From Sipunculus nudus (Eukaryota > Annelida > Sipuncula > Golfingiida > Sipunculidae): a stretch of 64,000 nt of DNA. Positions 4,488-58,281 of the stretch are shown piece by piece. Under the pieces are notes generated by a model, which searched no databases, was not told the origin of the DNA, and saw only the letters and a list, made by a program, of their open reading frames with translations. How positions within the stretch are numbered: the stretch's first letter is position 1; each line of letters begins with the position of its first letter. The stretch spans positions 6,817,519-6,881,518 of the forward strand of contig CM049306.1 of assembly GCA_026874595.1 (NCBI GenBank). Direction: 5' to 3'. Both the position numbers and the translations under genes were made by a program.

Positions 4488-6689
4488 CTTGGTTTGCATT
4501 TTAAGCGAATCGGGTTTATCGTCAGGTCACATGTGAACTGCTGCGCCCTCATTTTTGGTTGGCCTCTGACCTTTCCTCGCTGCCCAGCGTCCATTTGTGC
4601 GTCTCTTTCCACACATAAACCCGCATATCTCGGGAACCGTTTGACTGATCAGGCTAAACATTTTGCACAAATGTAGCCCTTTGATAGCTTTATAACATTC
4701 ACTAAAAATGGTGGCGCCACCTGCAATCATTTTTGCACAGCGTTCATCTGTTCATCTGCCTTGGGAAAAAAATCACTCATATCTCAGCAGTGGGTTGACT
4801 TATCCACCTGAAATTCTGCAGGTTTATACAACCTGGACAGCCTTCTCGATTTTATGACAGGTGGCGCCACCTACATTCAGGTTTACTCTGCAGACATCCA
4901 AGCTCATATCTCGGGAACTGTTTGACCGATTGGGCCAAAATTTTGCATGTGTATAGATCTCACATAGCTCTTCATCATAGACAAAACTGGTGGCAACACC
5001 TGAAACCACTTATGCACAGCGTCCATCTGTTCATCTGCCTTGGGATAAAATCACTCATATCTCAGCAGTGGTTTGACTTATTCACCTTAAATTATGCAGG
5101 TTTATACATACTGGACAGCTTTCTCGATTTTATGACAAGTGGCGCCACCTACATTCAGGTTTACTCTGCAGACATTCAAGCTCGTATCTCGGGAACCGTT
5201 TGACCGATTGGGCCAAAATTTTGCATGTGTATAGATCTCACATAGCTCTTCATCATAGGCAAAACTGGTGGCGCCACCTATTACCATTTATGCACAGTGT
5301 CCATCTGTTCATCTGCCTTGGGATAAAATCACTCATATCTCAGCAGTGGTTTGACTTATCCACCTGAAATTTTGCTGGTTTATACATCCTGGACAGCTTT
5401 CTCGATTTTATGACAGGTGGCGCCACCTACATTCAGGTTTACTTTGCAGACATCCAAGCTCATATCTCGGGAACCGTTTGACCGATTGGGCCAAAATTTT
5501 GCATGTGTATAGATCCCACATACCTCTTCATCATAGGCAAAACTGGTGGCGCCACCTGCAACCATTAATGCACAGCATCCATCTGTTCATCTGCCTTGGT
5601 GTAAAATCACTCATATCTCAGCAGTGGTTTGACATATCCACCTAAAAATTTTCCAGGTTTATGCATCCTGGAAAGCTTTCTCGATTTTATGACAGGTGGC
5701 GCCACCTACATTCAGGTTTACTTTGCAGACATCCAAGCTCACATCTCGGAAACGGTTTGACCGATTGGGCCAAAATTTTGCATGTGTATAGATATCACAT
5801 AGCTCTTCATCATAGGCAAAACTGGTGGCGCCACCTGCAACCATTAATGCACAGCATCCATCTGTTCATCTGCCTTGGTGTAAAATCACTCATATCTCAG
5901 CAGTGGTTTGACTTATCCACCTGAAATTTTGCAGGTTTATACATCCTGGACAGCATTCTCGATTTTATGACAGGTGGCGCCACCTACATTCAGGTTTACT
6001 TTGCAGACATCCAAGCTCATATCTCGGGAACCGTTCGACCGATTGGGCCAAAATTTTGCATGTGTATAGATCCCACATACCTCTTCATCATAGGCAAAAC
6101 TGGTGGCGCCACCTATTACCATTTATGTACAGTGTCCATCTGTTCATCTGCCATGGGATAAAAGCACTCATATCTCAGCAGTGGTTTGACTTATCCACCT
6201 GAAATTTTGCAGGTTTATACATCCTGGACAGCTTTCTCGATTTTATGACAGGTGGCACCACCTACATTCAGGTTTACTCTGCAGACATCCAAGCTCATAT
6301 CTCGATAACCGTTTGACCGATTGGGCCAAAATTTTGCGTGTGTATAGATCTCACAAAGCTCTTAATCATAGGCAAAACTGGTAGCGCCATCTGCAACCAC
6401 TTATGCACAGCGTCCATCTGTTCATCTGCCTTGGGATACATTCACTCATATCTCAGCAGTGGTTTGACTTATCCACCTGAAATTTTGCAGGTTTATACAT
6501 CCTGGACAATTTTCTCGATTTTATGACAGGTGGCACCACCTACATTCACGTTTAAGCTGCAGACATCCATGCTAATATGCAACACACCTCACTCTATTCC
6601 CCTTGCCATTTAATCCATGCCTCATTTCAACCGTCCCACTCTGATTTCTGCGGATGCACATAGTCGCTTGTCGACTACCCATATTCTAG
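4488..6689 (+). mobile_element. Helitron-like array element, copy A (3' end CTAG)
   Basis: Inner element of the nest. Its 5' part matches copy C (GGTCACATGTGAACTGCTGCG onward) but lacks that copy's terminal hairpin. The body is about seven tandem 278-bp units, each holding two GGTGGCGCCACC palindromes and the phrase TATCTCGGGAACCGTTTGACC. The 3' end is GCGGAT...TAGTCG-CTTGT-CGACTA hairpin...TATTCTAG, followed by T. CTAG-T after a hairpin is the signature of Helitron 3' ends. No Rep/helicase gene is present. Confidence 0.72.
4700..6560. repeat. 278-bp tandem array
   Basis: The phrase ACAGGTGGCGCCACCTACATT recurs at starts 4860, 5138, 5416, 5695, 5973, 6251 and 6529, giving a period of 278-279 bp. 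The unit is itself a diverged pair of halves, each with a GGTGGCGCCACC-like palindrome. Short minus-strand open frames of 61 residues recur once per unit, but they change at every frame-shifting difference and match no known domain. Confidence 0.95.
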
Positions 6690-6861
6690 TTTTAAAATGT
6701 CCTAGTCTAAAACTTGCAGGTCAGAAATGTCCGTTTTGCTGAAATCATAATGACTAAGGTAGATATGCAGGACTTAAAAGGATCAATATTAAATTTTAAA
6801 AATAAACCTCCATTCATACTCCCAAACTTTGCACAGGTTCGCATTAGGCCTGTAGGCCTTG

Positions 6862-8105
6862 TTAATTATTCTTAGGGGTACTTGCGAGCCCCATAGCTCG
6901 AAGGAAATGGGTAACAGAGACCTATCCACAGGGACTTTTCATGGACCTTCCTTGATTTCAAGTTAGAAGATTCCAGGTCCAGCAGTTACGATTTGTAACC
7001 TGTTAACAGATGAGGCTTTATTTGAAAGTCTCAAAAAGAGAAACAAATGCGTACAAATTTAAACAAATATATAGGTGGCGCCACCAGTCTGCAGGAACTC
7101 ATGAAACACTCCATGATCAATATGCCTGCAAAGAATCATAGTGATAAATGCATTAGTTATTCAGATACTGGAGCTTTTGTATCAAATTTTTAATTATTCT
7201 GAGGGGTACTTACTATGAAGGATATGGGTAACAGAGACCTAATTTCATGTTTTTCACAGAGACTTTTCATTGACCTCCCTTGATGTAAAGTTTGAAGAAT
7301 ACAGGTCCAGCGGTTATGATTTGTGCCCTGTTAACAGATGACAGCTTCTTTGAAAGTCTCAGAAATAAAAAAAAAAAATCGTAAAAATTGGTAAAAATAC
7401 AGGTGGTGCCACCAGTATGCATGAACTGATGGAACATCCCATGATCACTATTCATGCAGGAATCATGGTTATCAATGCAGTAGTTATTCAGATACGTGAG
7501 CTTTTGTATTAAATTTTGCATTATTCTGTGGGGGGGGGGGGGGGGGATTTCGGAGCCCCATAGCTCAAAGGATATGGGTAACAGAGACCTAATTTCAGGT
7601 TTTCAAGGAGATTTTTCATGGACCTCCCTGGATATTAAGTTTCAAGATTCCAGGTCCAGTGGTTACGATTTGTGCCCTGTTAACAGATGACAGTTTCATT
7701 GCAGGTCTGAAAAAAAAGAGAAAAAAAAATCGTAAAATTTGGAGAAAAAATACAGGTGGCGCCACCAGTCTGCAGGAAGTGATGGAACATCCCATGATCA
7801 ATATTAATGCAAAGAATCTTGGTGATCAATGCAGTAGTTATTCAGATATTTGAGCTTTTGTATCAAATTTTGCATTATTCTGGGGGGTACTTCAGAGCCC
7901 CATAGCTCAAAGGATATGGGTAACAGAGACCTAATTTCAGGTTTCCAAGGAGATTTTTTATGGACCTCCCAGGATGCCAAGTTAGAAGATTGCAGGTCCA
8001 GCGGTTACGATTTGTGCCCTGTTAACGGACGGCAGGACGGACGGACGGACGACGGACAAAGAGTGATCGCTATAGCTCAGATGACTTTCAGTCAGCTGAG
8101 CTAAA
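6862..8105 (+). mobile_element. 3' part of outer array-bearing repeat with hairpin tail
   Basis: Three to four units of about 330-350 bp (anchor GGTGGCGCCACCAGTCTGCAGG at 7074, 7402 and 7755). Each also carries GCCCCATAGCTCAAAGGATA and CCAGGTCCAGCGGTTACGAT. The last unit leads into GGACGGACGGACGACGGAC and a 3' hairpin, AGCTCAG-ATGACT-TTC-AGTCAG-CTGAGCT, followed by AAAAA. The same tail occurs at 15903-15975. No coding capacity. Confidence 0.75.
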
Positions 8106-8926
8106 AATTTTTAATTCTTTGAAAAAATTTGTTTAAAGTTCTGTAAAAAAGAAAGGAGTGGCCTAGCAAGTTCATATAAAGAAACCTTCAAAGGGCACAC
8201 CAAATTTCAAAACAATCCATGACGCCAATCCTGAGAAATTAAATTTCAGATAAAGAAGTACTGTAGGATTGTAGGTTTCCCAAAAATAAAACGCTGATGA
8301 TGTCTGAAAATGGACAACATCAATTATTTAGGAAGGAATGTATAAAATATCTCTTGGTTTGTATGAAAACATCGAAAAAAGGCCCAACATAAGGCTAAGG
8401 GCACTTATGATATTGTCAAGGTTATCGATCTACTAAGAAATTCTTAACAAATTCTATACAATCCAAATTATCCTGTACTCATTTTACTGGGAGAGATGAA
8501 CTGCAAAAACTGTTAAAAATGGTTTGCAAAGGTTAAATTACAGATTAAATCTGTGGAAACATGATTTCTTAATTAGTCTGTCGGTCCAACCCCTTGCCTA
8601 TCTTTCAAGAAATATCTCTATAAGCCCTGCTGCTTTCTTCACTGAATTTTGCAGTTGTACTCGTCACATGACTGATCTGTGAATATAATCTGCCTTCGGC
8701 GCCACCTTTGTACAGCTACCGGTACATTCAGCAGTCCAACTCTGTCCTTTCCACATTCTTTCAGACAAGCTTGGAATGGGACACAAGGATCTAGGGGATT
8801 CTGAGGAATTAAGTGAATACTAGTCTGAAGGGAATTTATTTTGAACTGATGAGTCCAAAAGACTTGCTGATCGCAAAATATTCTGATTTTATATTTGCCT
8901 ATATGTTGCAAAAGCTTTTACCTTAA
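8106..8926. other. No gene seen
   Basis: Mixed AT-rich sequence. A minus-strand open frame of 90 codons at 8639-8911 has no domain I can recognise. A CGGCGCCACC motif sits at 8697. Confidence 0.3.
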
Positions 8927-9190
8927 CAGTGGACACTCAGTTGTTTCAAAATTGAAAACAAATTGAAATGAGGTTGAGATGTTTTCAACTCATTTTCAAC
9001 ATTAAATCAATGCTTATTTGACAGTGATGGTTCAATGTTGATGATCAACTAGGTTTCAAAATTGAATAAATGTTGATTTTCCACTAGCGATTCAATCTTA
9101 ATTTTTTAACAAGTCAATATTGAATCAAAATTGATTTGACAATTACGGAAGCGTATTGCTGCCACCTGGTAAAAGAAAAATAAATTATTT

Positions 9191-9400
9191 ATCTCGTACG
9201 TACGACGTACTTTCTCGTACGTACGACATAGTATCTCGTACGTACGACATACTATCTCGTACGTACGACATATTATCTCGTACGTACGACATAGTATCTC
9301 GTACGTACGACATAGTATCTCGTACGTACGACATAGTATCTCGTACGTAAGACATATTATCTCGTACGTACGACATACTTTCTCGTACGTACGACATAAT
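9191..9400. repeat. 21-bp tandem repeat, 10 copies, in left arm of foldback
   Basis: Unit ATCTCGTACGTACGACATAGT, built on the palindrome TCGTACGTACGA. Because 21 is a multiple of 3, the array is open on both strands and yields artificial SRTYDIV-type heptads. Confidence 0.95.
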
Positions 9401-10552
9401 AAATCTCACGGATTTGATTCATAGACTAGATAACATGCCAACAGATATATGTTTAAGCAATATGTATATGTTAAATAATGTATGTTTTCACATTAACTAT
9501 ATATACAACATCTCCACCTCCTTGCAAACCGCTGGACCACCATTGAAAGCAACACACACAATCACATATATCTATTTATTTATAGTATATATTTAAATGC
9601 TATTCGATTCACATTTTTGTGTGTGTCCAGGTTTCTGTAATATTTCAAGCAAGCGAAATATACATCAAATCGTTGTCTGACAATCATATAAAGAACTCAT
9701 TTTACAACAGGTGAATAAATAATGTTTTTAACAGTATATGAGAGTATAATAGTGAGCCTGTCATAATGTTAATAAGAACAAAATCTTGCCTTTGCCAAAC
9801 TGAAACTACTTTTTTAGAAAGAAGGGTTCGGACAAGAGGTTCAGCTCCCAAATAGCCTGATTTTAAGTAACTGATCATTTGTACGGCAGGTTTCTAATAT
9901 TCTAAACTGATCTTTCTAAGAACTAGATTTATACATAACACATCGTGTAGTTGACCTTTTGAACTATTTAATGCATATACAGCCATTGGTATGATTGTTG
10001 GGTAGCTGAATAGAAAACAATACATTTAATGGGGTACGTATAATTTTTATTTTGAACTAAATTATAAATAAAAATATATTAAAAACTATCACTCATGGGC
10101 GTGCGATCAATCTGTGACAGAAGAATACGAAATTAAAAAATAAGTCTTAACCGCATATGTCAGGCTGAAGTGTTAGTAAAATCTACACCTCAGATTTGTC
10201 TCATTTGCGGATTGATAAAAGATAATGTATGTGGTACATGTGCGTGTAACTCGCCCTTTTGTAAACGGCATGAAGTTCAACTTATGAGATCAAGCACTTC
10301 GTTTAATTAAATATGAATCATGAACCTCTCCTAATTGGCATCTCTGTATTACAGAACCTCTATAAGTGTCTGTTACGTGTTTACATAAGAAGGCCCGGTG
10401 ACCAGAGGAAAAAAGATCTTGCTCGCGCATTTGCGACAATTATAAACAAATAAAAGAAACATAAAAGAAGAAACACCTAGAAAAGCTTGAAAACCCTTGA
10501 ATTGTGAATTTATGTTGTACCACCACCAGGTGGCGTGAGCGCTGTGTTTGTC

Positions 10553-10662
10553 ATGTACAAGAGACATATTAGTTATTGTTACTTGCGGGGGATTCCCATG
10601 CTTATATGGCAAATCTGAAATGGAAATAAAATTTAGAAACGAGACCAATCGTTTAGAAACGA
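10553..10662. other. Loop of the foldback palindrome
   Basis: A 110-bp unpaired centre between the two arms. It contains a short direct duplication, TTTAGAAACGAGA, at its right end. Confidence 0.75.
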
Positions 10663-11824
10663 GACAAACACAGCGCCCACGCCACCTGGTGGTGGTACAG
10701 CATAAATCCACAATTCAAGAGGTTTCAAGCTTCTCTAGGTGTTTCTTCTTTCATGTTTCTTTTCTTTTTTATAGTTGTCGCATGTGCGCGACCAAGATCT
10801 TTCCTCTGGTCACCCGGCCTTCTTATGTAAACACTTAACAGACACTAATAGAGGTTCTGTAATACAGAGATGCCCATTAGGAGAGGTTCATGATTCATAT
10901 ATTATGAAACGAAGTGCTTGATCCAATAAGTTGAACTTCATGCCGTTTACAGAAGGGCGAGTTACACGTACATGTGCCACATACAATATCTTGTACCAAT
11001 CCGCAAATGAGACAAATCTGAGGTGTAGATTTTACCACCACTTCAGACTTACAATGAGGTTATGACTTATTTTAGAATTTCGTATTCTTCTGTCACAGAT
11101 TAATCGCACATCCATGAGTGATAGTTTTTAATAATTTTTTTTTTTATGATTTAGTTCAAAATAAAAATTATACGTACCCCATTTAATGGATTGTTGTCTG
11201 ATCAGCTACCTACCAATCATATCAATGGCTGTATATGCATTAAATAGTCAAAAAGATCAACTACATGATGCGTTATAAGAAAGACCAGTTTAGAATATTA
11301 TAAACCTGCCCCACAAATATCCGTTCTCAGTTACTTTAAATCAGGCTCTTTGGGAGCTGTACCTCTTGTCCGAACCCTTCCTTCTCAAAAAGGTAGTTAC
11401 AATTTTGCAAAGGCAATATTTTTTTATAATTAATATTATGAAAATTGTTTCTTATTAACATTATGACAGGCTCACTATTATAACATCATATACTGCTAAC
11501 ATTATTTAATCATCTGTCTTAAAATGAGAGTTCTGTATTACTGTCAGACAACGATTTGATGTATATTTCGCTTGCTTTAAATTTTACAGAAACCTGGACA
11601 CACAAAAAAATGTGAATCGATTAGCACTTAAATATATACTATAAATATATAGACATATGTGAGTGTGTGTGTTGGTTTCAACGTTGGTCCAGCGGTTTGC
11701 AAGGAGGTGGAGATGTTGTATATATAGTAAATGTGAAAACATACATTATTTAACATATACATATTGCTTATACATATATCTGTTTGCATGTTGTCTAGTC
11801 TATGAATCAGATCCGTAAGATTTA

Positions 11825-11910
11825 TTATGTCGTACGTACGAGATAATATGTCGTACGTACGAGATATTATGTCGTACGTATGAGATAATATGTCGTACGT
11901 ACGAGATAAA
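11825..11910. repeat. 21-bp tandem repeat, 4 copies, in right arm of foldback
   Basis: The reverse-complement counterpart of the array at 9191-9400, but with four copies instead of ten. Copy number therefore changed in one arm after the palindrome formed. Confidence 0.93.
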
Positions 11911-12081
11911 TAATTTATTTTTCTTTTACCAGGTGGCAGCAATACGCTTCCGTAGACAATAATGTCTCAATGTTGATGATTTAAGGTTGAAGCAATTTTA
12001 AAATTACGCTTTTCCAATATTGTTTCAATATTGATGATAAATGTTGATTCAATATTTAATCAATGTTGATTTGCCCACTGG

Positions 12082-12950: not shown

Positions 12951-14589
12951 TAGGGAACCTGTGAGCTTGAGCAATGGTGTGGAGTCGTTTGTCGTCTGTA
13001 CTATCTAAAAACGGCAGGATCTAGCATCACCAAATTTTAGGCAAAAAATCAATCATTTAAAAATCTATTGGATTTTGCTTTTTTTTTTGCTATCTGCATT
13101 TAATTAGATTTTATAGGGGAAAAGCTAAAAAAAACTTTAAAAATCTTCTTATCCGATAATGTTCAGCTAAATTGTCCAATATTTCACAGAAATGGTCCCA
13201 GAACTTGAACAATCTCTGTCAAGTTTGTTCAGATAGTTTGGGGTCGAGTAACTTTGGCTGAATTTCAGGAACTTGAACTTAATTTTGGCCAAGTAAGCAT
13301 TCTAACATAACAATCTCATAAACTACAGGAGTGAGCATCACCAAGTTTTGTGCAAATGTTGTTCACATGACTCATATGTGTTATATATGCTGTTATATAT
13401 GATAAAAAAATATGATTTAGAAATGAGGCACATGCTGGTTTTGTGTGGTAATAAGTATAAGCTGTATTATGACTTGTTGTTGTTAAGCTTATGTATGATT
13501 TTGATAGTACCTTTGGAGACAGAGAAGAGAATTGATTTCATTTATTTTATTAACAAATGGAGTACTATTGTCACACAGATTTTGACTTGGCCATATAACT
13601 TATAAGCAGAACATATAATATAAGAGTTTAACTTTTTATTAAAAAAATTACAAATATTGTCCCAGATATAATTTTTATTAAAAATAATAAGAAAATCGTA
13701 TGATTTTTAAAATGAAATATAACTGAAATGATTATTAAAATAATATTAAAGAATATATTCATGAATGCATTCATGAATACATTTGGAAAGTAATTGCACT
13801 GGTATTCATATACTTTCATTTTTACCTGAATTCCCATTCTTTATGCAAGAAATTTTATAATGGAGTACATATTCATATTCATATTTAAATACAATTGCAA
13901 AGTATTCCCACCATGTCTGGTATTTATTCAGTTTTCACCAAACAATGGTGTTGAGAATTCAGAATGTACAAAATTCACACATTTAAATAATGATCATAAG
14001 TACCTGGTTTTATGGCTTTTATTTATATTTAAAAAAATAAATGTGATATATTCATTTTGGACTAATTTCACATCAATGAATATACTAGACACAGTAGGAA
14101 TCTAGATTAATATTATCAACTGCATCTTTGTCTATCATTAATTTCCTTCATATGATCCCTAATGATTAGTAATGAATAATATGATTTACTTTTTTATTAT
14201 TAAAATTGAACTGAAAAATGCCATAGGTGACTGCATGGTGTTATTTGGAATACGTGACATTCTATCCATCGATACAAGATTCTTATATCATCAGTAACTG
14301 CAATTTAATTCCCTATTATTATAAACTAACAAATTCCTTTTCTATTTTTCTTTAATTTGTTATTAAAAACCAATAAAAATTGATTAATTTATTGTTTATT
14401 GTTATGTTGTTGGTTAAAACTACTAGATGAGTTGGGTTGGACACCTGGATCAACTGTGGCTGACCATAAGCTGCCTGGCTGCCCAAGTATATGCCTCGTC
14501 TCAAGCGTGCATAATTTGCTGAAAGTTCAACAAAGTCAACATACAGGTGACTCAAGAGTGGCTGGAGAGAGCCACGGTCTGACATGGTC

Positions 14590-15975
14590 TCATAAAAACA
14601 TTAATAAAAGCTACAATTTTTGGCCAATTTCTTTCAGCTTTCTAAACTAAAAAGCTGAAATCCTTATGTGTGCATGACATGAAAATTATATAAACAGAGC
14701 TCACATGAAACAAAAGTGAAATGGTCAAAGTTTGGCAAAATTTAAGGTACTAATTTTATATTTATACTAATAACTTAAAAATTTGAAAAATTCAGAACTA
14801 ATTTTGGGGATTCAATTGAATCTTGATAAAATAATGTTACATCCCTGACAAAAAATCTCTAGCTTCAGCAAGCCCCTTGTTAAGGGAGTAAATATATTTC
14901 TTGATTTTTTACAAAGTGCATTATGTTTGGGCCCATAACTTAAAACAATTATGCAATACTGACATCATTTCTGGCATGTGCACAGAGAATGAATAGAAAA
15001 ACGTATATTATATATGATTAAAGTCAGATCAGTGGTTTTGATATAAGGCAGTATTGAAGTGTAACAATGGGTTTTTAATTGAAAAATGAAGTTTTTCATT
15101 AATATCTCAAAGGTATTAAGTCCTAGTGACCAAATTCTTGGCATGATAGGGGATTTTGGAGACATCTAATTGTTACCAAATTTTACGAACTGAGAGCTTA
15201 AGCTGGGGAGCGGAGCTCTTGCAAACCGCATAACACTAGCCTGATGTAAACAATGTTACATGGTGCTTGAAAACTTGAATAAAATCTACAGTTTTTGAGC
15301 ATTTGGTTTTAAATTTTTGGTGTTAACAGACAAAATGCTAACAAAAACATGCTGAGAAAATTGAATCCACAGTACTTACAGGGAAAAAACGTGCCATGGT
15401 CAAAGTAAGGCAAAATATAAGGTACCAATTATTTATTTTTGTTAATATTTTAAAAAAATTAAAAGATTTTGATCTAATTTTGGGTATACAATTTAATTTT
15501 GATTAATTAAAGTTATATTACTTGAAAAAAAGTCCATAGCTTTAACAAGTTTTGTGTTAAGTGATCAAATATCTTTCCTGATTTTTTACAAAATGCATTA
15601 TGTTCTGGCCCATAACTTTCTTAAATTATATAATACAGACATAATTTCAGGCATGTACATAGGAACTATATAGAGGAATATTTATGGTAAATATGAGGAA
15701 AAACAGATGAGTGGTTTAGATATTAGGCAGCCCTGAAGTGTGAAAATAGGTTTTTAATAAAAAATTGAGGTTTTTCCTTAATTTCTCAAAGGAACAAAGT
15801 CGCAAAGACCCAGTTTTCGGCTTGGTAGGAGATCTTGGGGACATCTAACACTATGCCAAATTTTAGGTTCCTAGGTCTTACGGTTTCAAAACGTGCCACA
15901 TCTACGGACGGACGGACGACGGACAATGGACCACGACTATAGCTCAGATGACTTGTAGTCAGCTGAGCTGAAAAA
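14590..15975 (+). mobile_element. Dimeric repeat ending in GACGGACGG tract and hairpin
   Basis: Two diverged direct copies with a period of about 675 bp (anchor GGTCAAAGTNNGGCAAAAT at 14723 and 15398; also CATTATGTTYKGGCCCATAA). The second copy leads into CGGACGGACGGACGACGGAC and the hairpin AGCTCAGATGACTTGTAGTC/AGCTGAGCT near 15940-15971. The tail is the same as at 8062-8105 although the internal units differ. Confidence 0.7.
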
Positions 15976-16689
15976 ATCAAAATTGTCCAAGTCTCAACAA
16001 AAAGAATTTATTTAACATTAAAATTATTGGGTTATTGTCGGCTAAGTAAGCCCCCAGCTAAGGGAAGAGCCTATGCCTTTAAATGATTTTTGGCAGAATT
16101 ATTGGATCTTTAACAATGAAAGAACTGTGAGATACTTTGGTAAACATAGCTATTAGATTTATTGTCATTAACACACTGAGCTCTTTGGGTATATAAGCAG
16201 AGCTCTATAGGCAACATAAATAATTAGTTCCATTACCAGCTTATGTGTAAGGTAAATCCATGAATAAAATCTATCTGTTTTCTGATTTTGTTTTCAATAG
16301 GCATCTGTTATTATTCTTAACATTTTTATATAATTAAATCTTCTGAATATGCAGCTTGAAAAAAAGGCATTCTAGCCAAAGTCTTCAGTATGTATAAACA
16401 GATTTGGCAATGTGCCAAAAGTTTGTCTGTATCTATAAATAGCTTGGCAGACTGCCAATTATTTCAGATTTGCAAATAGACAAAGTTCCAGTCTTGATCT
16501 ATTTATATCTTTGGCAGACTGTCAACTCTATCAGAGCAGAGTTTGGTAGAGTCATCAAAATTATGCAAATTTTGTGCTTGTCAGGCGATTGACTGTATAC
16601 TTTGCTAATGGTAACTTGATTGGTTGCTCGCAACAGCTCTGCTCATGATTATTCATTGAATGATTATGCAACTGAGGTCACACAAAGTT

Positions 16690-16910
16690 CATTGATAGGT
16701 CAATTGTGGTGCCACCTACAATTGTTTTTTGGTTTCATGCATCTGTGCACATAGCCCAAGAGTGGTTTGAAGTATCTGCCTGAAATTTTGCATGTCCATA
16801 CAACTATGATGGCTTTATGTACACAAGACTGGTGGCACCACCTATGACCATTTTGTGTTGTGTACATCCATGCCAGTATTTCAGGAGTGACGTTTGTGTA
16901 ATTGGTGCTT
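16690..16910 (+). repeat. Diverged units of the 278-bp array family
   Basis: GTGGTGCCACCTACAATTG and GTGGCACCACCTATGACC stand about 130 bp apart with TTTGAAGTATCTGCCTGAAA between them, matching the half-unit spacing of the 278-bp family. This is an old copy. Confidence 0.55.
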
Positions 16911-17050
16911 ACACTCTGAGTCAAAATGTTTAGTACTTACATTGTACTTATATATGTCACACGTGTACTTGAAAAGTATTGGTCCAGCATGGAAGTATTA
17001 TACCTGATGTATATCCCATTGCACAGGTTCCCATTAGGTTGTAGGCCTTG

Positions 17051-23494: not shown

Positions 23495-23641
23495 GCTGCT
23501 GCACCAAGAAAGAAACTGCAGGCATGTGTGAGAAGCAGCGTGGGCAGATTATCCATGGAAAACAGAGGGCTTTTCATGACGCGAGTGTTACGCACACTCA
23601 GTTTATGTTTCCTGCCTGGGTGTTTCAAACGACTCCATTCA
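23495..23641 (-). CDS. BNIP3: BNIP3-like mitophagy receptor, fourth visible exon (pre-membrane and transmembrane)
   Basis: Minus-strand exon of 147 nt, acceptor TTTTCTTGCAG, donor GTAAGT. It completes a Ser codon and then encodes 48 residues. LKHPGRKHKLSVRNTRVMK aligns with the human FKHPKRTATLSMRNTSVMK block that precedes the membrane. The exon then runs into the tail-anchor segment NLPTLLLTHACSFFLGAA. The His that is critical in the human BNIP3 transmembrane dimer is conserved in LLLTH (human LLLSH). The small-residue motif is altered: human A-xxx-G-xxx-G reads S-xxx-G-xxx-M here, the last residue lying in the next exon. The segment remains a plausible tail anchor for the outer mitochondrial membrane. 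Confidence 0.96.
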
Positions 23642-24079: not shown

Positions 24080-24985
24080 CATCTTAAGCAACAATATATA
24101 TCAGACCACACTCATAGAAAAGGTCACTCTCATAGAAAAGGTCATGACCCCAATTTCAATAAACATCATCCCCTAACCCATGTCTATGTATATGCATAAT
24201 ATGAAAGAAATCTGTCCATTAGTTTTTGACTTATTATGCTCACAGTACTGTTAAGTGGCAATGATGGGGTATTAAACGGCACAAACACAAGTAAAAGAAT
24301 AACTGGTGGCGCTATCAGTTTCCGGTAAATGACAACACTATCCAAGATCTTTGGTCAAGTTGATTTTTGGACCAATCAATGCATCCCTTATTGAGATATT
24401 AATGATTTTGTGTGATTTTCACCATATATGGCAATATTCAAGGTCAAGGCCACTCTCAAGAAAAGGTCATGACCCCAATTTAAATAAACATCATCCCCAT
24501 AACCCATATCTATGTATATGCATAATATAAAAGAAATCTGTCCATTAGTTTTTGACTTATAATGCTCACAGTACTGTCAAGTAGCAATTTAGGGGGTATT
24601 AAACGGCATGAAAACAAGTAAAGAATAATAGGTGGCGCCACCAGTTTCTGGAACATGACAACCCTATCCATGATCTCTCATCAACTTGATTTTGGGATCA
24701 ATCCATGTAAGATTTCTTGAGATATTTAAGAAATTGTGTGATTTTCCCCAAAATTGGACCTATTCAAGGTCAAGGACACTCTCCTAGTCAAGGTCATGAC
24801 CTCATTTTAAATAGGCGTCGTCCTCTCACCCATATCTATACATATACCAAGTTTGGTAAAGATCTGTGAAATATTTTTTGAGTTATCGTGCCAACAAGAT
24901 TTATATGCGGCGGCGGTGGCGGGGGGAGCAGTGGGACCAGTATGAAAACATAGTATCCCCAGACTTTGTCTAGCGATACAATGAT
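24080..24985. mobile_element. Intronic array-bearing repeat, ~325-bp units
   Basis: AGGTCATGACC recurs at about 24139, 24463 and 24790, and GGTGGCG at 24305 and 24631, giving two to three units of about 325 bp. The right end, read on the minus strand, is GTATCGCTAGACAAAGTCTGGGGATACTATGTTTTCA. It shares GATACTATGTTTTCA with the 5' ends of the Helitron-like copies B and C. A GCGGCGGCGGTGGCGG tract lies just inside. It sits between BNIP3 exons. Confidence 0.6.
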
Positions 24986-25897: not shown

Positions 25898-25965
25898 CTG
25901 GGAGGGTTGGCTTCTGGTCTACTTGACCAATCCCAAATCCAGTCTGTGGTCTGAAAAGCTGGTGC
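25898..25965 (-). CDS. BNIP3: BNIP3-like mitophagy receptor, third visible exon (WIWDWSSRPE block)
   Basis: Minus-strand exon of 68 nt, acceptor GTTTCAG, donor GTAAGA. It encodes APAFQTTDWIWDWSSRPEAN followed by PP, plus two spare bases. The DWIWDWSSRPE string is almost identical to the most conserved soluble segment of vertebrate BNIP3 and BNIP3L, next to the region described as BH3-like. This is the strongest single piece of evidence for the gene's identity. The upstream intron is about 10 kb and holds a TIR transposon and the 49-bp and 29-bp minisatellites; the downstream intron is about 2.3 kb and holds the repeat at 24080-24985. Confidence 0.96.
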
Positions 25966-41862: not shown

Positions 41863-43468
41863 CTAGCGACAAGCGACTACGTGTATCCACAGAAATCAGA
41901 GTGTGACAGGTGAAGTGAGGCATGGATTGAGTGGCAAGGGGAAATAGAGTGAGGTGTGTTGCATATTAGCATGGATGTCTGCAGCCAAAATGTGTATGTA
42001 GGTTGTGCCACCTACCACAAAATCAAAAAAGCTATCAAAGTTGAATACAAATGCAAAAAGTCAAACCACTGCCGAGATACAAGTGATTTTATCCCACGGC
42101 AGACAAACAGACGGACACTGTGCAAAAAATCATTGCAGGTGGCGCCACCAGTTTTGCGTATGATAAAGAGCTATGTGAGATCTTTACACATGCAAAATTT
42201 TGGCCCAATCGGTTAAACTTTTCCAGAGATATAAGCCTGGATGTCTGCAGTGTAAACATAAATGAAGGTGGCGCCACCTGCCACAAAATCGAGAAAGCTA
42301 TCCAAGATGTTTGAACCTGCAAAATTATAGGCAGATAAGTCAAACCAGTGCAGATATATGAGTGATTTTATCCCACTGCAGACAAACAGACGGATGCTAT
42401 GCAAAAATGGTTGCAGGTGGCGCAACCAGTTTTGCATATGATAAAGAGCTATGTGAGATGCAAAATTTTGGCCCAATCGGTCAAACAGTTCCTGAGATAT
42501 GAGCTTGGATTTCTGCAGCGTAAACTTGAATGAAGGTGGCGCCACCTGTCATAATATTAAGTCAGCTGACCAGGATGTATACTGAGCAAAATTTCAGGTG
42601 GATAAGTCCAACCAATGCAGAGATATGACTGATTTTATCCCAAGGCAGATGAACAGATGGACTCTGTGCAAAAATTGGTTGCAGGTGGTGCCACCATTTT
42701 TTATGTATGTTATAAAGCTATCCAAGGGCTACATTTGTGCAAATTTTTTTTCCGGATTGGTCAAACGGTTCCCAAGATAAGTTGGTTAATGTGTCAAAAC
42801 AGACGCACAGATGGACGCACTGGAGAGAGGAAAGGTCAGAGGTTAAAACAAAATCGGGGTGCAGCAATTCACATGTGACCCGAACATAATCACGGGTTTT
42901 TTTTATTTATTTTTTTTTTTTTAATTATAATTTTTTTGGTGGAGGTAACCGCCTCCATTTTTTTAATGCTAACTTATCTAATTCTTAATCTAAGAATGTA
43001 CATCTGCAGAGTTTCCGTTTCGGTTTGGGACTACTTGACAGGGCGGTAGCACTCGCTTCCAATCATTTTTATTTTATATCCTGGTGTCACCCAGGCCCGG
43101 TGTCTACTGCACCTGCGGGTCCTGGGTGTGTAATCATCCCCATTGCTGGGTCATAACACCAAGGAACTCCCCAAAGACGCACTCGTATGTGAGTGATACA
43201 TGGCTGTGGGGCACAGCCTACCCATTAAGCCTGCAGAGTGCTCACCCTGGGTGGGGGCCGACCGTGAAAAACCTCACCGCCTCGGCTGAGATTAGAACCC
43301 ACGATCTCCCGGCTTTGAGTCCCGCGCTCTACCCCTGAGCCACAGAAGCTGGTCATAATCCTTGGTTTCGTAAAATTCCGCCCAGCAGTTACGGAGGAGT
43401 TCTCCGGACACCTACACGGCAGCAGCGTCTGACTGAAAACATAGTATCCAGAAATCCAGATATCCATA
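41863..43468 (-). mobile_element. Helitron-like array element, copy B, interrupted by a SINE
   Basis: Reverse orientation relative to copies A and C. On the minus strand it starts with a hairpin-like GGATATCTGGATTTCTGGATACTATG...(43.47 kb) and passes through GTGTCCGGAGAACTCCTCCG and GTCACATGTGAA...GCTGC. It carries about two 270-bp units with GGTGGCGCCACC and ends GTAGTCGCTTGTCGCTAG|TT at 41863. It differs from copies A and C by lacking ACTACCCGTATT just before CTAG. It is interrupted at 42892-43353. Confidence 0.72.
42892..43353 (-). mobile_element. tRNA-derived SINE inserted in copy B
   Basis: On the minus strand the head reads TGGCTCAGGGGTAGAGC (A box, 43326-43342), then GGGTTCTAATCTC (B box, 43288-43300), as in a tRNA-derived RNA polymerase III promoter. 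A body of about 300 bp and an A-rich tail (plus-strand T runs at 42897-42960) follow. CATAATC flanks it at 42885-42891 and 43354-43360 as a target duplication, and removal rejoins the copy B sequence. The SINE subfamily is not identified. Confidence 0.85.
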
Positions 43469-44764: not shown

Positions 44765-47700
44765 GAGACTGTGAGTCTGACACTGTGAACAGCTGTTAAA
44801 ATGTACAAGGACAGTGAGCCTGACACTGTGAACAGCTGTACAATGTACAAGGACAGTGAGCCTGACACTGTGAACAGCTGTTACAATGTACAAGGACAGT
44901 GAGCCTGAGACTGTGAAAAGCTGTTACAATGTACAAGGACAGTGAGCCTGAGACTGTGAACAGCTGGTACAATGTACAAGGACAGTGAGCCTGAGACTGT
45001 GAACAGCTGTTACAATGTACAAGGACAGTAAGCCTGAGACTGTGAACAGCTGTTACAATGTACAAGGACAGTGAGCCTAAGACTGTGAACAGCTGTTACA
45101 ATGTACAAGGACAGTAAGCCTGAGGCTGTGAACAGCTGTTACAATGTACAAGAACAATGAGCCTGAGACTGTAAACAGCTGTTACAACGTACAAGGACAG
45201 TGAGCCTGAGACTGTGAACAGCTATTACAATGTACAAGGACAGTGAGCCTGACACTGTGAACAGCTGTTACAATGTACAAGGACAGTGAGCCTGAGACTG
45301 TGAAAAGCTGTTACAATGTACAAGGACAGTGAGCCTGAGACTGTGAACAGCTGGTACAATGTACAAGGACAGTGAGCCTGAGACTGTGAACAGCTGTTAC
45401 AATGTACAAGGACAGTGAGCCTGAGACTGTGAACAGCTGTTACAATGTACAAGGACAGTGAGCCTAAGACTGTGAACAGCTGTTACAATGTACAAGGACA
45501 GTAAGCCTGAGGCTGTGAACAGCTGTTACAATGTACAAGAACAGTGAGCCTGAGACTGTGAACAGCTGTTACAACGTACAAGGACAGTGAGCCTGAGACT
45601 GTGAACAGCTATTACAATGTACAAGGACAGTGAGCCTAAGACTGTGAACAGCTTTTTCAATGTACAAGGACAGTGAGCCTGAGACGGTTCACAGCTGTTA
45701 CAATGTACAAGGACAGTGAGCCTGAGACTGTGAACAGCTGTTACAATGAACAAGGACAGTAAGCCTGAGGCTGTGAACAGCTTTTTTAATGTACAAGGAC
45801 AGTGAGCCTGAGACTGTGAACAGCTGTTACAATGTACAAGGACAGTGAGCCTGAGACTGTGAACAGCTATTACAATGTACAAGGACAGTGAGCCTGACAC
45901 TGTGAACAGCTGTTACAATGTACAAGGACAGTGAGCCTGAGACTGTGAAAAGCTGTTACAATGTACAAGGACAGTGAGCCTGAGACTGTGAACAGCTGGT
46001 ACAATGTACAAGGACAGTGAGCCTGAGACTGTGAACAGCTGGTACAATGTACAAGGACAGTGAGCCTGAGACTGTGAACAGCTGTTACAATGTACAAGGA
46101 CAGTAAGCCTGAGACTGTGAACAGCTGTTACAATGTATAAGGACAGTGAGCCTGAGACTGTGAACAGCTGTTACAACGTACAAGGACAGTGAGCCTGAGA
46201 CTGTGAACAGCTATTACAATGTACAAGGACAGTGAGCCTAAGACTGTGAACAGCTTTTTCAATGTACAAGGACAGTGAGCCTGAGACTGTTCACAGCTGT
46301 TACAATGTACAAGGACAGTGAGCCTGAGACTGTGAACAGCTGTTACAATGAACAAGGACAGTAAGCCTAAGGCTGTGAACAGCTTTTTTAATGTACAAGG
46401 ACAGTGAGCCTGAGACTGTGAACAGCTGTTACAATGAACAAGGACAGTATAAGCCTGAGACTGTGAACAGCTGTTACAATGTACAAGGACAGTGAGCCTG
46501 AGACTGTAAACAGCAGTTACAATGTACAAGTACAGTGAGCCTGAGACTGTGAACAGCTGTTACAATATACAAGGATCTGAGACTGAGACTGTGAACAGCA
46601 GTTACAATGTACAAGGACAGTGAGCCTGAGACTTTGAACAGCTGTTACAATGTACTGTTACAACATACAAGGACAGTGAGCCTGAGACTGTGAACAGCTG
46701 TTACAATGTACAAGGACAGTAAGCCTGAGACTGTGAACAGCTGTTACAATGTACAAGGACAGTGAGCCTGAGGCTGTGAACAGCTGTTTCAATGTACAAG
46801 GACAGTGAGCCTGAGACTGTGAACAGCTGTTACAATGTACAAGGACAGTGAGCCTGAGACTGTGAACAGCTGTTACCATATACAAGGATCTGAGACTGAG
46901 ACTGTGAACAGCAGTTACAATGTACAAGGACAGTGAGCCTGAGACTCTGAACAGCTGTTACAATGTACTGTTACAACATACAAGGACAGTGAGCCTGAGA
47001 CTGTGAACAGCTGTTACAATGTACAAGGACAGTAAGCCTGAGACTGTGAACAGCTGTTACAATGTACAAGGACAGTGAGCCTGAGACTGTAAACAGCAGT
47101 TACAATGTACAAGTACAGTGAGCCTGAGACTGTGAACAGCTGTTACAATATACAAGGATCTGAGACTGAGACTGTGAACAGAAGTTACAATGTACAAGGA
47201 CAGTGAGCCGGAGACTGTGAACAGCGGTTACAATGTACAAGTACAGTGAGCCTGAGACTGTGAACAGCTGTTACAATATACAAGGATCTGAGACTGAGAC
47301 TGTGAACAGCTGTTACAATGTACAAGGACAGTGAGTCTGAGACTGTGAACAGCTGTTACAATATACAAGGATCTGAGACTGAGACTGTGAACAGCTGTTA
47401 CAATGTACAAGGACAGTGAGCCTGAGACTGTGAACAGCTGTTACAATGTACAAGGACAGTGAGCCTGAGACTGTGAACAGCTATTACAATGTACAAGGAC
47501 AGTGAGCCTGACACTGTGAACAGCTGTTACAATGTACAAGGACAGTGAGCCTGAGACTGTGAAAAGCTGTTACAATGTACAAGGACAGTGAGCCTGAGAC
47601 TGTGAACAGCTGGTACAATGTACAAGGACAGTGAGCCTGAGACTGTGAACAGCTGGTACAATGTACAAGGACAGTGAGCCTGAGACTGTGAACAGCTGTT

Positions 47701-48986
47701 ACAATGTACAAGGACAGTAAGCCTGAGACTGTGAACAGCTGTTACAATGTATAAGGACAGTGAGCCTGAGACTGTGAACAGCTGTTACAACGTACAAGGA
47801 CAGTGAGCCTGAGACTGTGAACAGCTATTACAATGTACAAGGACAGTGAGCCTAAGACTGTGAACAGCTTTTTCAATGTACAAGGACAGTGAGCCTGAGA
47901 CTGTTCACAGCTGTTACAATGTACAAGGACAGTGAGCCTGAGACTGTGAACAGCTGTTACAATGAACAAGGACAGTAAGCCTGAGGCTGTGAACAGCTTT
48001 TTTAATGTACAAGGACAGTGAGCCTGAGACTGTGAACAGCTGTTACAATGAACAAGGACAGTATAAGCCTGAGACTGTGAACAGCTGTTACAATGTACAA
48101 GGACAGTGAGCCTGAGACTGTAAACAGCAGTTACAATGTACAAGTACAGTGAGCCTGAGACTGTGAACAGCTGTTACAATATACAAGGATCTGAGACTGA
48201 GACTGTGAACAGCAGTTACAATGTACAAGGACAGTGAGCCTGAGACTTTGAACAGCTGTTACAATGTACTGTTACAACATACAAGGACAGTGAGCCTGAG
48301 ACTGTGAACAGCTGTTACAATGTACAAGGACAGTAAGCCTGAGACTGTGAACAGCTGTTACAATGTACAAGGACAGTGAGCCTGAGGCTGTGAACAGCTG
48401 TTTCAATGTACAAGGACAGTGAGCCTGAGACTGTGAACAGCTGTTACAATGTACAAGGACAGTGAGCCTGAGACTGTGAACAGCTGTTACCATATACAAG
48501 GATCTGAGACTGAGACTGTGAACAGCAGTTACAATGTACAAGGACAGTGAGCCTGAGACTCTGAACAGCTGTTACAATGTACTGTTACAACATACAAGGA
48601 CAGTGAGCCTGAGACTGTGAACAGCTGTTACAATGTACAAGGACAGTAAGCCTGAGACTGTGAACAGCTGTTACAATGTACAAGGACAGTGAGCCTGAGA
48701 CTGTAAACAGCAGTTACAATGTACAAGTACAGTGAGCCTGAGACTGTGAACAGCTGTTACAATATACAAGGATCTGAGACTGAGACTGTGAACAGAAGTT
48801 ACAATGTACAAGGACAGTGAGCCGGAGACTGTGAACAGCGGTTACAATGTACAAGTACAGTGAGCCTGAGACTGTGAACAGCTGTTACAATATACAAGGA
48901 TCTGAGACTGAGACTGTGAACAGCTGTTACAATGTACAAGGACAGTGAGTCTGAGACTGTGAACAGCTGTTACAATGTACAAGGAC
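44765..48986. repeat. 43-bp minisatellite, about 98 copies, with 1614-bp higher-order duplication
   Basis: Unit ACAAGGACAGTGAGCCTGAG + ACTGTGAACAGCTGTTACAA + TGT. Distinctive variants recur exactly 1614 bp apart: GTATAAGG at 46135/47749, GTTCACAGC at 46289/47903, TGTACTGTTACAAC at 46651/48265, ACTCTGAAC at 46944/48558. Because 43 is 1 mod 3, minus-strand frames of up to 133 codons cycle through all three readings of the same unit; these are not taken as genes. Confidence 0.97.
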
Positions 48987-50578: not shown

Positions 50579-50611
50579 ATATCAAATCAATATCTCAGGA
50601 TGTAAATACAA

Positions 50612-52115
50612 TACCAAAGTGAAAAGTCAGAGCATTTCTAAGTAATACCAAAGAGATAAGCCTGAGTATTTCTAAGTAATACCAAAGAGATAAGCCTGAG
50701 TATTTCTAAGTAATACCAAAGAGATAAGCCTGAGTATTTCAAGGTAATATCAGAGTGATAAGCCTGAGTATTTCTAAGTAATACCAAAGAGATAAGCCTG
50801 AGTATTTCTAGGTAATATCAGAGCAATAAGCCTGAGTATTTCTAAGTAATACCAAAGAGATAAGCCTGAGTATTTCTAAGTAATACCAAAGATATAAGCC
50901 TGAGTATTTCTAAGTAATACCAAAGAGATAAGCCTGAGTATTTCTAGGTAATGTCAGAGTGATAAGCCTGAGTATTTCTAAGTAATACCAAAGAGATAAG
51001 CCTGAGTATTTCTAAGTAATACCAAAGAGATAAGCCTGAGTATTTCCAAGTAATACCAAAGAGATAACCCTGAGTATTTCTAGGTAATACCAAAGAGATA
51101 AGCTTGAGTATTTCTAAGTAATACCAAAGTGATAAGTCTGAGTATTTCTAGGTAATATCAAAGTGATAAGCCTGAGTATTTCTAGGTAATACCAAAGTGA
51201 TATACCTGAGTATTTCTAGGTAATACCAAAGTGATAAGCCTGAGTATTTCTAGGTAATACCAAAGTGATATACCTGAGTATTTCTAGGTAATACCAAAGT
51301 GATAAGCCTGAGTATTTCTAGGTAATACCAAAGTGATAAGCCTGAGTATTTCTAGGTAATACCAAAGTGATATACCTGAGTATTTCTAGGTAATACCAAA
51401 GTGATATACCTGAGTATTTCTAGGTAATACCAAAGTGATAAGCCTGAGTATTTCTAGGTAATACCAAAGTGATATACCTGAGTATTTCTAGGTAATACCA
51501 AAGTGATAAGCCTGAGTATTTCTAAGTACTACCAAAGTGATATACCTGAGTATTTCTAGGTAATACCAAAGTGATAAGCTGAGTATTTCTAGGTAATACC
51601 AAAGTGATATACCTGAGTATTTCTAGGTAATACCAAAGTGATAAGTCTGAGTATTTCTAAGTAATACCAAAGTGATAAGTCTGAGTATTTCTAGGTAATA
51701 TCAAAGTGATAAGCCTGAGTATTTCTAGGTAATACCAAAGTGATATACCTGAGTATTTCTAGGTAATACCAAAGTGATATACCTGAGTATTTCTAGGTAA
51801 TACCAAAGTGATAAGCCTGAGTATTTCTAAGTTCTACCGAAGAGATAAGCCTGAGTATTTCTAAGTAATACCAAAGTCATAAGTCTGAGTATTTCTAGGT
51901 AATATCAAAGTGATAAGCCTGAGTATTTCTAGGTAATACCAAAGTGATAAGTCTGAGTATTTCTAAGTAATACCAAAGATATAAACCTGAGTATTTTTAA
52001 GTAATACCAAAGAGATAAGTCTGAGTATTTCTAGGTAAAACCAAAGTGATATACCTGAGTATTTCTAGGTAATACTAAAGTAATAAGCCTGAGTATTTCT
52101 AGGTTACACCAAAGG
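50612..52115. repeat. 34-bp minisatellite, about 44 copies
   Basis: Unit TACCAAAGTGATAWRCCTGA + GTATTTCTARGTAA. Two variants, GATAAGCCTGAG and GATATACCTGAG, intermix in the right half. The left half mainly uses AGAGATAAGCC. It lies in a BNIP3 intron. Confidence 0.97.
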
Positions 52116-53289: not shown

Positions 53290-53473
53290 CTTGCCCTGCT
53301 TGAGGCAGCGCTTTGGTTTACTGATGACTGACGTGATGCCTCCTTCAAGGCCTCCAGCAACATGGAGTCCATCTGACCGTTATGTGAGGACACCGGGCGG
53401 GGCGTGGATGTCCCGCTGCTGTTCTGACTCTGCTGGGAGAGCTGCTGCTGGAAATGCAGCTCCACCCACGAAT
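53290..53473 (-). CDS. BNIP3: BNIP3-like mitophagy receptor, first visible coding exon (LIR exon)
   Basis: Minus-strand internal exon of 184 nt, bounded by acceptor TTTCAG (53474-53479) and donor GTAAGC (53284-53289). It encodes 60 complete residues starting SWVELHFQQQ, with two spare bases at each end. SWVELHF matches the N-terminal LC3-interacting region of vertebrate BNIP3, where W and L of WxxL bind LC3/GABARAP on the autophagosome; the serine just before W, a phosphorylation site in human BNIP3, is kept. A Gln/Ser-rich linker follows, then MDSMLLEALKEASRQSS, which aligns with the human segment MEKILLDAQHESGRSSS. BNIP3 is a tail-anchored outer mitochondrial membrane protein that recruits the autophagy machinery. 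The exon opens in phase 1, so an upstream coding exon must supply the start codon; it was not identified. Confidence is high because the downstream exons join in frame. Confidence 0.93.
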
Positions 53474-53566
53474 CTGAAAGGAAAGGCAGCAGGCGTTACA
53501 AAATGATGACAGCACTGAAAAATCACCACAAGATCAGAACTAGTGTTTTTTTAGATACTACAGTTA

Positions 53567-54869: not shown

Positions 54870-54872
54870 TTA

Positions 54873-56240: not shown

Positions 56241-56248
56241 TCTAAATT

Positions 56249-58281
56249 GTATCCGCCAAAACAGAGTTTTGCGGATACTATGTTTTCAGCCCACTGCCGC
56301 CGCCACCACCGCCGCCGCGCAGGTGTCCGGAGAACTCCTCCATAACCGCTGGGGGGAATTTTACGAAACTCGGGATTATGTTCGGGTCACATGTGAACTG
56401 CTGCGCCCCGATTTTGTTTTGACCTCTGACCTTTCCTCTGCGCCCGTTTGTGCGTCTGTTTCCACACATAAACCCACATATCTCGGGAACCGTTTGACCG
56501 ATCGGGAAAATTTTTTTGCACAAATGTAGCCCTTGGAGAGCTTTATAACATACACAAAAAATGGTGGCGCCACCTGCAACCATGTTTGCACAGTGTCCAT
56601 CTGTTCGTCTGCCTTGGGTTAAAATCACTCATATCTCTGCAGTGACTTGACTAATTCACCTGAAATTCGTCATGCGTATACATCCTAGATAGCTTTTCTG
56701 ATTTTATGACAGGTGGCGCCACCTACATTCATGTTTACGCTGCAGACATCCAAGCTCATATCTCGGGAACCGTTTGACCGATCAGGAAAATTTTTTTTGC
56801 ACAAATGTAGCCCTTAGAGAGCTTTATAACATACACAAAAAATGGTGGCGCCACCTGCAACCATGTTTGCACAGTGTCCATCTGTTCGTCTGCCTTGGGT
56901 TAAAATCACTCATATCTCTGCCATGACTTGACTAATTCACCTGAAATTCGTCATGCGTACACATCCTGGATAGCTTTTCTGATTTTATGACAGGTGGCGC
57001 CACCTACATTCACGTTTACGCTGCAGACATCCAAGCTCATATCTCGGGAACCGTTTGACCGATCAGGAAAATTTTTTTGCACAAATGTAGCCCTTGGAGA
57101 GCTTTATAACATACACAAAAAATGGTGGCGCCACCTGCAACCATGTTTGCACAGTGTCCATCTGTTCATCTGCCTTGGGTTAAAATCACTCATATCTCTG
57201 CAGTGACTTGACTAATTCACCTGAAATTCGTCATGCGTATACATCCTGGATAGCTTTTCTGATTTTATGACAGGTGGCGCCACCTACATTCACGTTTACG
57301 CTGCAGACATCCAAGCTCATATCTCTGGAACCGTTTGACCGATCAGGAAGATTTTTTTTGCACAAATGTAGCCCTTGGAAAGCTTTATAACATACACAAA
57401 AAATGGTGGCGCCACCTGCAACCATGTTTGCACAGTGTCCATCTGTTCGTCTGCCTTGGGTTAAAATCACTCATATCTCTGCAGTGACTTGACTAATTCA
57501 CCTGAATTCGGCATGCGTATACATCCTGGATAGCTTTTCTGATTTTATGACAGGTGGCGCCACCTACATTCACGTTTACGCTGCAGACATCCAATCTCAT
57601 ATCTCGGGAACCGTTTGACAGATATGGCCAAAATTTTGCACATGTATAGATCTCACATAGCTCTTTATCATACGCAAAACTGGTTGTGCAACCTGCAGCC
57701 ATTTTTGCACAGCTCCTGTCTGTTTGTCTGCCATGGGATAAAATCACTCATATCTTGGCAGTGGTTTGACATATCTGCCTAAAATTTTGCAGGTTCATAC
57801 ATCCCCGACAGCTCTCTTGATTTTATGACAGGTGGCGCCACCTGCATTCTAGTTTATGCAGCAGACATCCAAGCTCATATCTTGGGAACCGTTTGACCGA
57901 TTGGGCCAAAGTTTTGCATGTGTATAGTTCTCACATAGCTCTTTTTCATATGCAAAACTGGTGGCATCACCTGCAACCATTTTTGCTAAGCGTCCATCTG
58001 TTTGTCAGCCACGGGCTAAAATCACTCATATACATGTACTGGTTTGACTTATCTGCCTTAAATTTTGCTTATGTATACAACTTGGACGGCTTTCTGGATT
58101 TTGTGGTGGGGGGGGGGGCAACGTACATACACAATTTGGCTGCAGACATCCATGCTAATATGCAACACTTTTTTTTCTAACACTCTATTTCCCCTTGCCA
58201 CTCAATCCATGCCTCACTTCACCCGTTCCACTCTGATTTAGGCGGATACAAGTAGTCGCTTGTCGACTACCCGTATTCTAG
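56249..58281 (+). mobile_element. Helitron-like array element, copy C (most complete)
   Basis: The 5' terminus is a hairpin (GTATCCGCCAAAAC-AGA-GTTTTGCGGATAC, 56249-56278). It is followed by ACTATGTTTTCA, a CCGCCGCC tract, GTCACATGTGAACTGCTGCG and tandem units of about 280 bp (GGTGGCGCCACCTACATTCA at 56712, 56993, 57273, 57553 and 57830). The 3' end is TAGTCG-CTTGT-CGACTA, CCCGTATTCTAG, then T. The first four units are nearly identical to one another, unlike those of copy A. No Rep/helicase gene is present. Confidence 0.75.

Follow-up and report, generated by a model that had tools for sequence, protein, structure and literature searches.

A 12-bp palindrome amplified in the internal repeats of putative Helentron-type transposons of Sipunculus nudus, and its likeness to a CTCF core

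Short interspersed nuclear elements (SINEs) of mammals carry CTCF sites, and in some mammals such sites insulate or loop chromatin. In invertebrates, CTCF motifs are reported in the open chromatin of an annelid (PMC7854359) and at boundaries of topologically associating domains (TADs) and loop anchors of cephalopods (PMC12407938), and in echinoderms the orientation of the motif at boundaries is without pattern (PMC13317027), as far as the accessible parts of these papers tell. Among transposons, Cg_HINE elements of the Pacific oyster are described, in the available sections of the study, as non-autonomous Helentrons with subterminal inverted repeats (subTIRs), a 3′ palindrome, an oligo-T target and central satellite-like arrays (PMC7492417). 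Here, a 64,000-nucleotide stretch of the Sipunculus nudus genome (the window; assembly GCA_026874595.1, contig CM049306.1, hereafter C1, C1:6817519-6881518) is analyzed, in which the 12-letter symmetrical palindrome GGTGGCGCCACC recurs in arrays that appear to lie inside non-autonomous rolling-circle transposons of the Helentron/HINE type, as their internal repeats. We consider it rather probable that the palindrome serves several families of such elements as a cis motif within their satellite-like monomers, kept by source copies and decaying in insertions.

The palindrome is found 40 times in the window with up to two mismatches, against 0.34 expected from shuffles, and its 25 exact copies span 4039 to 57842. 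The first-pass annotation had claimed more than 20 sites amplified in three array families. The three families (F1 and those of ~328 and ~326 bp) are real, and the amplification proved larger than described: the 1.43-Gb genome holds 111,729 exact copies, or 78 per Mb, against 14 of a reversed-letter control, which is rough since its dinucleotides differ from those of the palindrome. The density in the window is five times the genome mean, and six arbitrary 8-kb pieces from other contigs contain no exact copy. The A..A context occurs 33,642 times in the forward and 33,634 times in the reverse sense, and the A..T context 41,719 times; through the A/T flank, 108,995 of the 111,729 copies (97.6%) contain at least one AGGTGGCGC core. 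For the carriers, 100 exact sites listed at C1:0.12-0.94 Mb were cut as 39 loci and compared with the window and other pieces; the resulting 125 exact sites, including the 25 of the window, fall into the families F1 (with two half-units), F2, F3 and F4 and a few rarer contexts. In the searchable parts of the literature, the exact palindrome gave a single match, in a bacterial chitinase context, and AGGTGGCGC gave, among the papers listed, nothing apparently relevant. Neither of two palindrome contexts searched for, one from F1 and one from F2, has an exact match in viral contigs.

The assignment of the arrays to Helentron/HINE-type elements is made from sequence features. SubTIRs were seen by eye at both ends of two elements (11 bp in W1, 8 bp in an element near 56 kb; both are located below). 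Folding as single-stranded DNA is strong at the 3′ ends, one each, of F1 (z -7.7), F2 (z -5.5) and F3 (z -3.2). Of 21 matches to the F2-type end, 19 have the dinucleotide AA after ..GAGCT, its first A being part of the hairpin arm. A GGAC-rich microsatellite adjoins the F2 3′ hairpin, whereas the microsatellite of Cg_HINE is in the left flank. One nested insertion, that of W1, lies in a T-run, where by eye, and for that case only, no target duplication is seen. Central satellite-like arrays are present, with tandem periods of ~270-330 bp. Furthermore, the genome has at least 143 matches to Helitron_like_N (Rep), with open frames reaching 2,426 aa and some exceeding 2,200 aa. A scan for tRNAs and SINEs in 15 pieces found none. 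The suggestion that transposons spread the palindrome is borne out, and the arrays lie inside elements with Helentron-type ends. In sum, a known kind of transposon has amplified this motif on a large scale, and the parts worth following are its conservation between lineages and the blocks of co-oriented elements.

Conservation was clearest among diverged F1 monomers. In both half-units, the palindrome is the best-conserved 12-bp window, at 0.942 in 71 monomers of one and 0.939 in 66 of the other; the other windows average 0.860 and 0.836 and peak at 0.910 and 0.919, and none of 77 and 76, respectively, reaches the palindrome. The half-units were found by a masked query, and four of 141 monomers were dropped, each the sole perfect one of its own locus. 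The A preceding the palindrome is invariant in both halves. All 13 F4 copies compared are perfect, but they were chosen for the palindrome, and their columns are shifted by one or two positions and are not relied on.

Recent insertions behave differently from what a maintained host site would require, at least in F4, the only family in this test, for which the first 100 listed places were taken. Selection by the flanks only gives 2,649 copies, and in 34 of the first 100, all on C1, the palindrome is changed; in 17 of these 34, the change is of the CpG only (C-to-T or G-to-A). The converse selection, in which the palindrome is kept constant and the adjacent 12 bases may vary, gives 2,288 copies, and this neighbor is changed in 23 of the first 100. 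Per 66 intact copies, the two CpG positions of the palindrome received 25 changes, 21 of which are transitions, and the other ten positions 15, so that the CpG decays about 8-fold faster per position. In the neighboring 12-mer, 77 intact copies correspond to 26 changes over its twelve positions; half of these (13) fall in a single recurrent column, perhaps the mark of a subfamily. Expressed per position and intact copy, change amounts to 0.023 at the ten non-CpG positions, 0.028 in the neighbor and 0.015 in the neighbor without the recurrent column. In these counts, no constraint on the palindrome is visible once it is inserted, and the decay of its CpG in F4 suggests methylation.

A cis motif read in source copies would join these two patterns. 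Several non-autonomous rolling-circle families carry the palindrome in their internal monomers; a protein binding it as double-stranded DNA would help the element to replicate, to be expressed or to escape silencing, and selection would retain the motif in source copies for the sake of this binding, while inserted copies would decay, mostly at the CpG. Judging from the F1 alignment, the palindrome is probably protein-bound in active lineages. As to the reader, another dimeric or zinc-finger factor, or the Rep of the element itself, is a possibility that we hold tentatively. The perfect two-fold symmetry of the palindrome suits a dimer, and many copies have CAGGTG on one or both sides, an E-box read by proteins of the Snail/ZEB type. 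Against this, the conserved stretch extends over the central GCGC, dispensable for an E-box, and the palindrome is absent from the two 10-kb pieces that carry autonomous Helitrons.

It is also conceivable, though unlikely, that the palindrome has no role and was merely amplified together with its monomers. The F4 counts are what such hitchhiking would give, the ten non-CpG positions having changed about as the neighbor did. The relations among families also bear on this point. The flank right of the palindrome retains residual similarity in several pairs among F1, F2, F2b, F3, F6 and F9 (F3-F9 z 6.1, F1b-F9 z 5.2, F2b-F3 z 4.9, F1b-F6 z 4.9, F2-F3 z 3.1; 300 shuffles each, 36 pairs, both sides, z uncorrected, with F2b, F6 and F9 being single sequences), so that one origin could suffice for most families. 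The same comparison found no flank similarity for F1a-F2, F1b-F2b and other pairs. Because of this residual similarity, the earlier description of the families as otherwise unrelated is too strong for several pairs, which have faint homology beside the palindrome; F4 stands apart: the left flank of F4 matches F1a (z 3.4), and otherwise there is little likeness beyond F4’s own variant. F4 may therefore have acquired the palindrome separately, if flanks are a guide. Its presence in F4, whose flanks are little like those of other families, tells against hitchhiking, and so does its standing as the best-conserved part of diverged F1 monomers despite a fast-decaying CpG.

Still less probable is that the palindromes are true CTCF sites spread by transposons and insulating or looping chromatin. 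The first-pass annotation had read CAGGTGGCGC as a match to the CTCF core YAGRKGGCRS; the letters were read correctly, and the palindrome contexts match this core in the form AGGTGGCGC, shared by the 108,995 copies counted above. Its further statement that F1 has the core on both strands holds for only one of the two half-units, in which the A/T-flanked core is present on both. The genome encodes a CTCF ortholog with 11 fingers at C11:67037824 (best match 55-56%, next best 42%; the query, human fingers 4-10, matched PDB CTCF exactly). The ortholog shares residues -1, 2, 3 and 6 with human CTCF in fingers 3-5, finger 3 having been compared by the human letters of the PDB match, and fingers 6 and 7 differ in part. 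Together with the motifs reported from the annelid and the cephalopods, this speaks for CTCF. On the other side, the palindromes lack the upstream CCA half: in the window, no CCA stands there in any of their 25 best 19-mers. The proposed scan with a CTCF matrix, run with MA0139.1 for all motif scores, gave the 25 window palindromes 1.6-12.1 of 31.8 bits, and none of the 25 passes p<1e-5. At p<1e-4, the window has 61 hits, 20 of them at palindromes, where 12.8 are expected in all; at p<1e-5, it has 13 hits at 11 places against 1.3 expected, none at palindromes. In 14 other pieces (128 kb), 13 hits pass p<1e-5 against 2.6 expected, an excess indicating either that the simple background is too lenient or that true motifs are widespread.

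The full consensus with CCA, CCASYAGRKGGCRSY, occurs 4,264 times in the genome against 41 times for the reversed consensus, an underestimate of chance because that sequence invariably contains a CpG; among the listed places, five read CCASCAGGTGGCGCC and could overlap the palindrome. From this enrichment, the genome seems to use the full motif, which the window palindromes lack, and the recent F4 copies, without constraint and with a decaying CpG, also argue against maintained CTCF sites. Where the letters are concerned, the CTCF claim is half correct; as a statement of function, it is unsupported. Another factor or a weak CTCF contact is favored over genome-wide true sites; if the binder is CTCF, the palindrome is probably a weak, core-only site, and from the arrayed cores, weak, array-enhanced binding is possible. 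For binding of the CTCF fingers in vitro, the proposed contrast is CAGGTGGCGCCACC against CCACCAGGTGGCGCT. Strong single CTCF-like sites lie off the palindromes at 2729 (19.9 bits), 41684 (17.7) and 55379 (21.1 of 31.8 bits), and by their scores, they are better candidates for real CTCF sites than the palindromes. A core match amplified 100,000-fold can mimic a CTCF network, and motif counts in repeat-rich invertebrates need the full motif and a decay test.

A role of the palindrome as a single-stranded hairpin for rolling-circle replication was rejected for most contexts, four of five folding not clearly better than shuffles (z -1.2, 0.2, -0.1 and 0.7).

Several observations weigh against a retained cis motif as well. 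The fifth context in that folding comparison, from F1, has z -2.9, mainly by stems outside the palindrome. Conservation is weaker in F2 and F3 than in F1, since 5 of 75 windows in F2 and 3 of 75 in F3 reach the palindrome; their columns, too, are shifted by one or two positions and are not relied on. Conservation between families is conditional on a search by exact palindrome, in which families losing it are under-sampled, and a relative without the palindrome does exist (13389-15983). Gene conversion within arrays could mimic conservation. Finally, no autonomous partner with matching ends was found in the two of 143 Rep loci that were opened, one of which (L058) held only a 10-letter piece of the F2 end. 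If the palindrome is nevertheless a required cis site, it would offer a way to learn what non-autonomous Helentrons depend on for their multiplication, and its 111,729 identical copies may titrate their binder.

The second part worth following is the orientation of the elements. The 39 C1 loci give 2,760 matches of at least 100 bp to one another, each pair being counted in both directions; every match is same-sense, and none is opposite. In the region C1:139956-1713023, among the matches listed, 91 of 91 orientable palindromes at 0.14-1.08 Mb point one way (A..A 91 and T..T 0 before 1.09 Mb, the lack of T..T at 0.94-1.09 Mb following from list order), and beyond 1.09 Mb, to 1.713 Mb, A..A counts 9 and T..T 43; with clusters merged at 10 kb, the numbers are 21 vs. 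0 and then 6 vs. 11. In eight further pieces of the block, 172 matches are same-sense and 25 opposite; the latter all involve L046, which has two inverted segments. Over C1:0-70 Mb, orientation agrees in 32 of 45 pairs of F2 and F4 clusters that lie within 200 kb of each other (permutation p 0.009), in 27 of 45 pairs at 200-400 kb (p 0.14) and in 68 of 134 at 0.4-1 Mb. Taken family by family, F4 pairs agree in 23 of 26 cases when less than 100 kb apart and in 9 of 19 at 100-200 kb; for F2 pairs, agreement is complete below 30 kb (35 of 35) but drops to 2 of 12 at 30-100 kb, which counts against a simple block model. The window itself has mixed element orientations.

Nested insertion, in which an element enters the A-rich tract of an older one, can produce local agreement; it does not obviously account for 0.94 Mb. 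In L009 and L039, an element end abuts the A-rich stretch of F2 in the same sense, and W1 lies in its T-run in the opposite sense. Strand bias of host A-tracts was not supported as the cause, with 61 A-tracts and 69 T-tracts in L048, L050, L051 and L053; as a reservation, all eight block pieces together have 163 A-tracts against 82 T-tracts, 102 of the 163 lying in repeat arrays of L047 and L049, and L046 and L052 have neither. As an orientation control, LINEs (long interspersed nuclear elements) taken by the YADD pattern were too sparse to use (430 genome matches, 26 for the reversed pattern), and no other high-copy family was found for this purpose in the sampled pieces. Inside the co-oriented block, L051 contains large gag-pol-like open frames of a long terminal repeat (LTR) retrotransposon at 1696-6068 (minus strand). 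Two candidate causes are a unistrand cluster of PIWI-interacting RNAs (piRNAs) and, by analogy with bacterial elements, strand-biased insertion at replication forks. If co-orientation follows replication, transposon strands would serve as a map of germline fork direction in rolling-circle-rich genomes. The wider proposal that the 13-letter AGGTGGCGCCACC is a conserved site coupling Helentron copying or insertion to host replication or chromatin, with co-oriented blocks recording germline fork direction, is a long shot.

Within the window, one carrier is W1 (3577-6863, minus strand, ends by eye), a putative non-autonomous Helentron-like element inserted in a T-run of an F2 element. Its 11-bp subTIR reads CACAGGTTCGC at 6832-6842 and GCGAACCTGTG at 3577-3587 (by eye). 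W1 contains the palindrome in the F4, or fourth, context at 4039-4050 (minus) and an F1 array at 4704-6578 (minus), whose 278-bp unit has two palindromes spaced about 149/129. The adjoining F2 element (6865-8107, plus) has ~328-bp units in an array at 6865-8026, palindromes at 7074, 7402 (one mismatch) and 7755, and a 3′ terminal hairpin TAGCTCAG..CTGAGCTA followed by oligo-A at 8073-8103 (plus), the F2 fold scored above; a further F2-like piece lies at 3394-3575. The relative without the exact palindrome, at 13389-15983 (plus), is a 2.6-kb Helentron-like element with an F2-type 3′ terminus and a 93% identical copy on C5 (L043). At 16705-16842 (minus; strand and relationship by eye), a decayed F1 relative has lost the CpG in both palindromes. 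The F3 array (24120-24839, plus; ~326 bp) has palindromes at 24305 (two mismatches) and 24631, and its 3′ terminal hairpin is at 24953-24979 (plus). Two more F1 arrays are located at 42058-42701 (plus, period 268 bp) and at 56477-58031 (period 281 bp), the latter in the 56-kb element (56249-58248, minus, ends by eye) with 8-bp subterminal repeats GGCGGATA at 58241-58248 and TATCCGCC at 56250-56257 (by eye) and a 3′ hairpin at 56249-56278.

Matches to BNIP3 exons were found on the minus strand at 53322-53480, 25897-25953 and 23503-23628 by tblastn with a human query (E 1e-6 to 1e-4). By these positions, the arrays at 24 and 42 kb fall within introns and those at 4-8 and 56-58 kb outside the matched exons on either side, in agreement with the earlier placement of arrays inside and beside this gene. 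Between the exon matches there are also minisatellite arrays at 27770-29243 (49 bp), 30662-33790 (29/58 bp), 44767-48986 (43 bp) and 50610-52114 (34 bp). Elsewhere, a foldback DNA element at 9144-11954 has inverted arms of up to 411 nt with 92% complementarity; its outer arms contain the 21-bp palindromic tandem repeat TATCTCGTACGTACGACATAG, and its inner arms have one full CTCF-like motif each, near 10520 and 10677 (20.6 and 20.8 bits).

Compared with known systems, the spread of a CTCF core by transposons is common to mammalian SINEs and to the elements here; unlike the SINE sites, only the core half is present here, and the tested copies, those of F4, are not maintained. The likeness to Cg_HINE extends over subTIRs, 3′ palindrome, oligo-T target and central arrays, which in the oyster, as here, have a fixed orientation and form families of mixed relatedness, as the available sections state (PMC7492417). 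The oyster units, compared by description, are 138-181 bp long against about 270-330 bp here, and an exact 12-bp palindrome shared across families, as seen here, is not described for Cg_HINE in those sections (PMC7492417). By description in the same source, Pearl, DTC84 and MgE of bivalves also resemble the present elements in their HINE-like architecture with central repeats (PMC7492417). For the orientation of Helitron insertions, the papers listed by a literature search gave, going by their titles and the openings of their abstracts, no report of such co-orientation. The nearest parallel is bacterial: the IS200/IS605 elements, of the HUH type, transpose as single strands, and their insertion orientation follows the direction of replication, according to the available text (PMC5371812). 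In S. nudus, blocks of eukaryotic elements are co-oriented, with a link to replication as a candidate, and the proposed role of AGGTGGCGCCACC, if true, would make them a eukaryotic counterpart of the replication-directed orientation of IS200/IS605.

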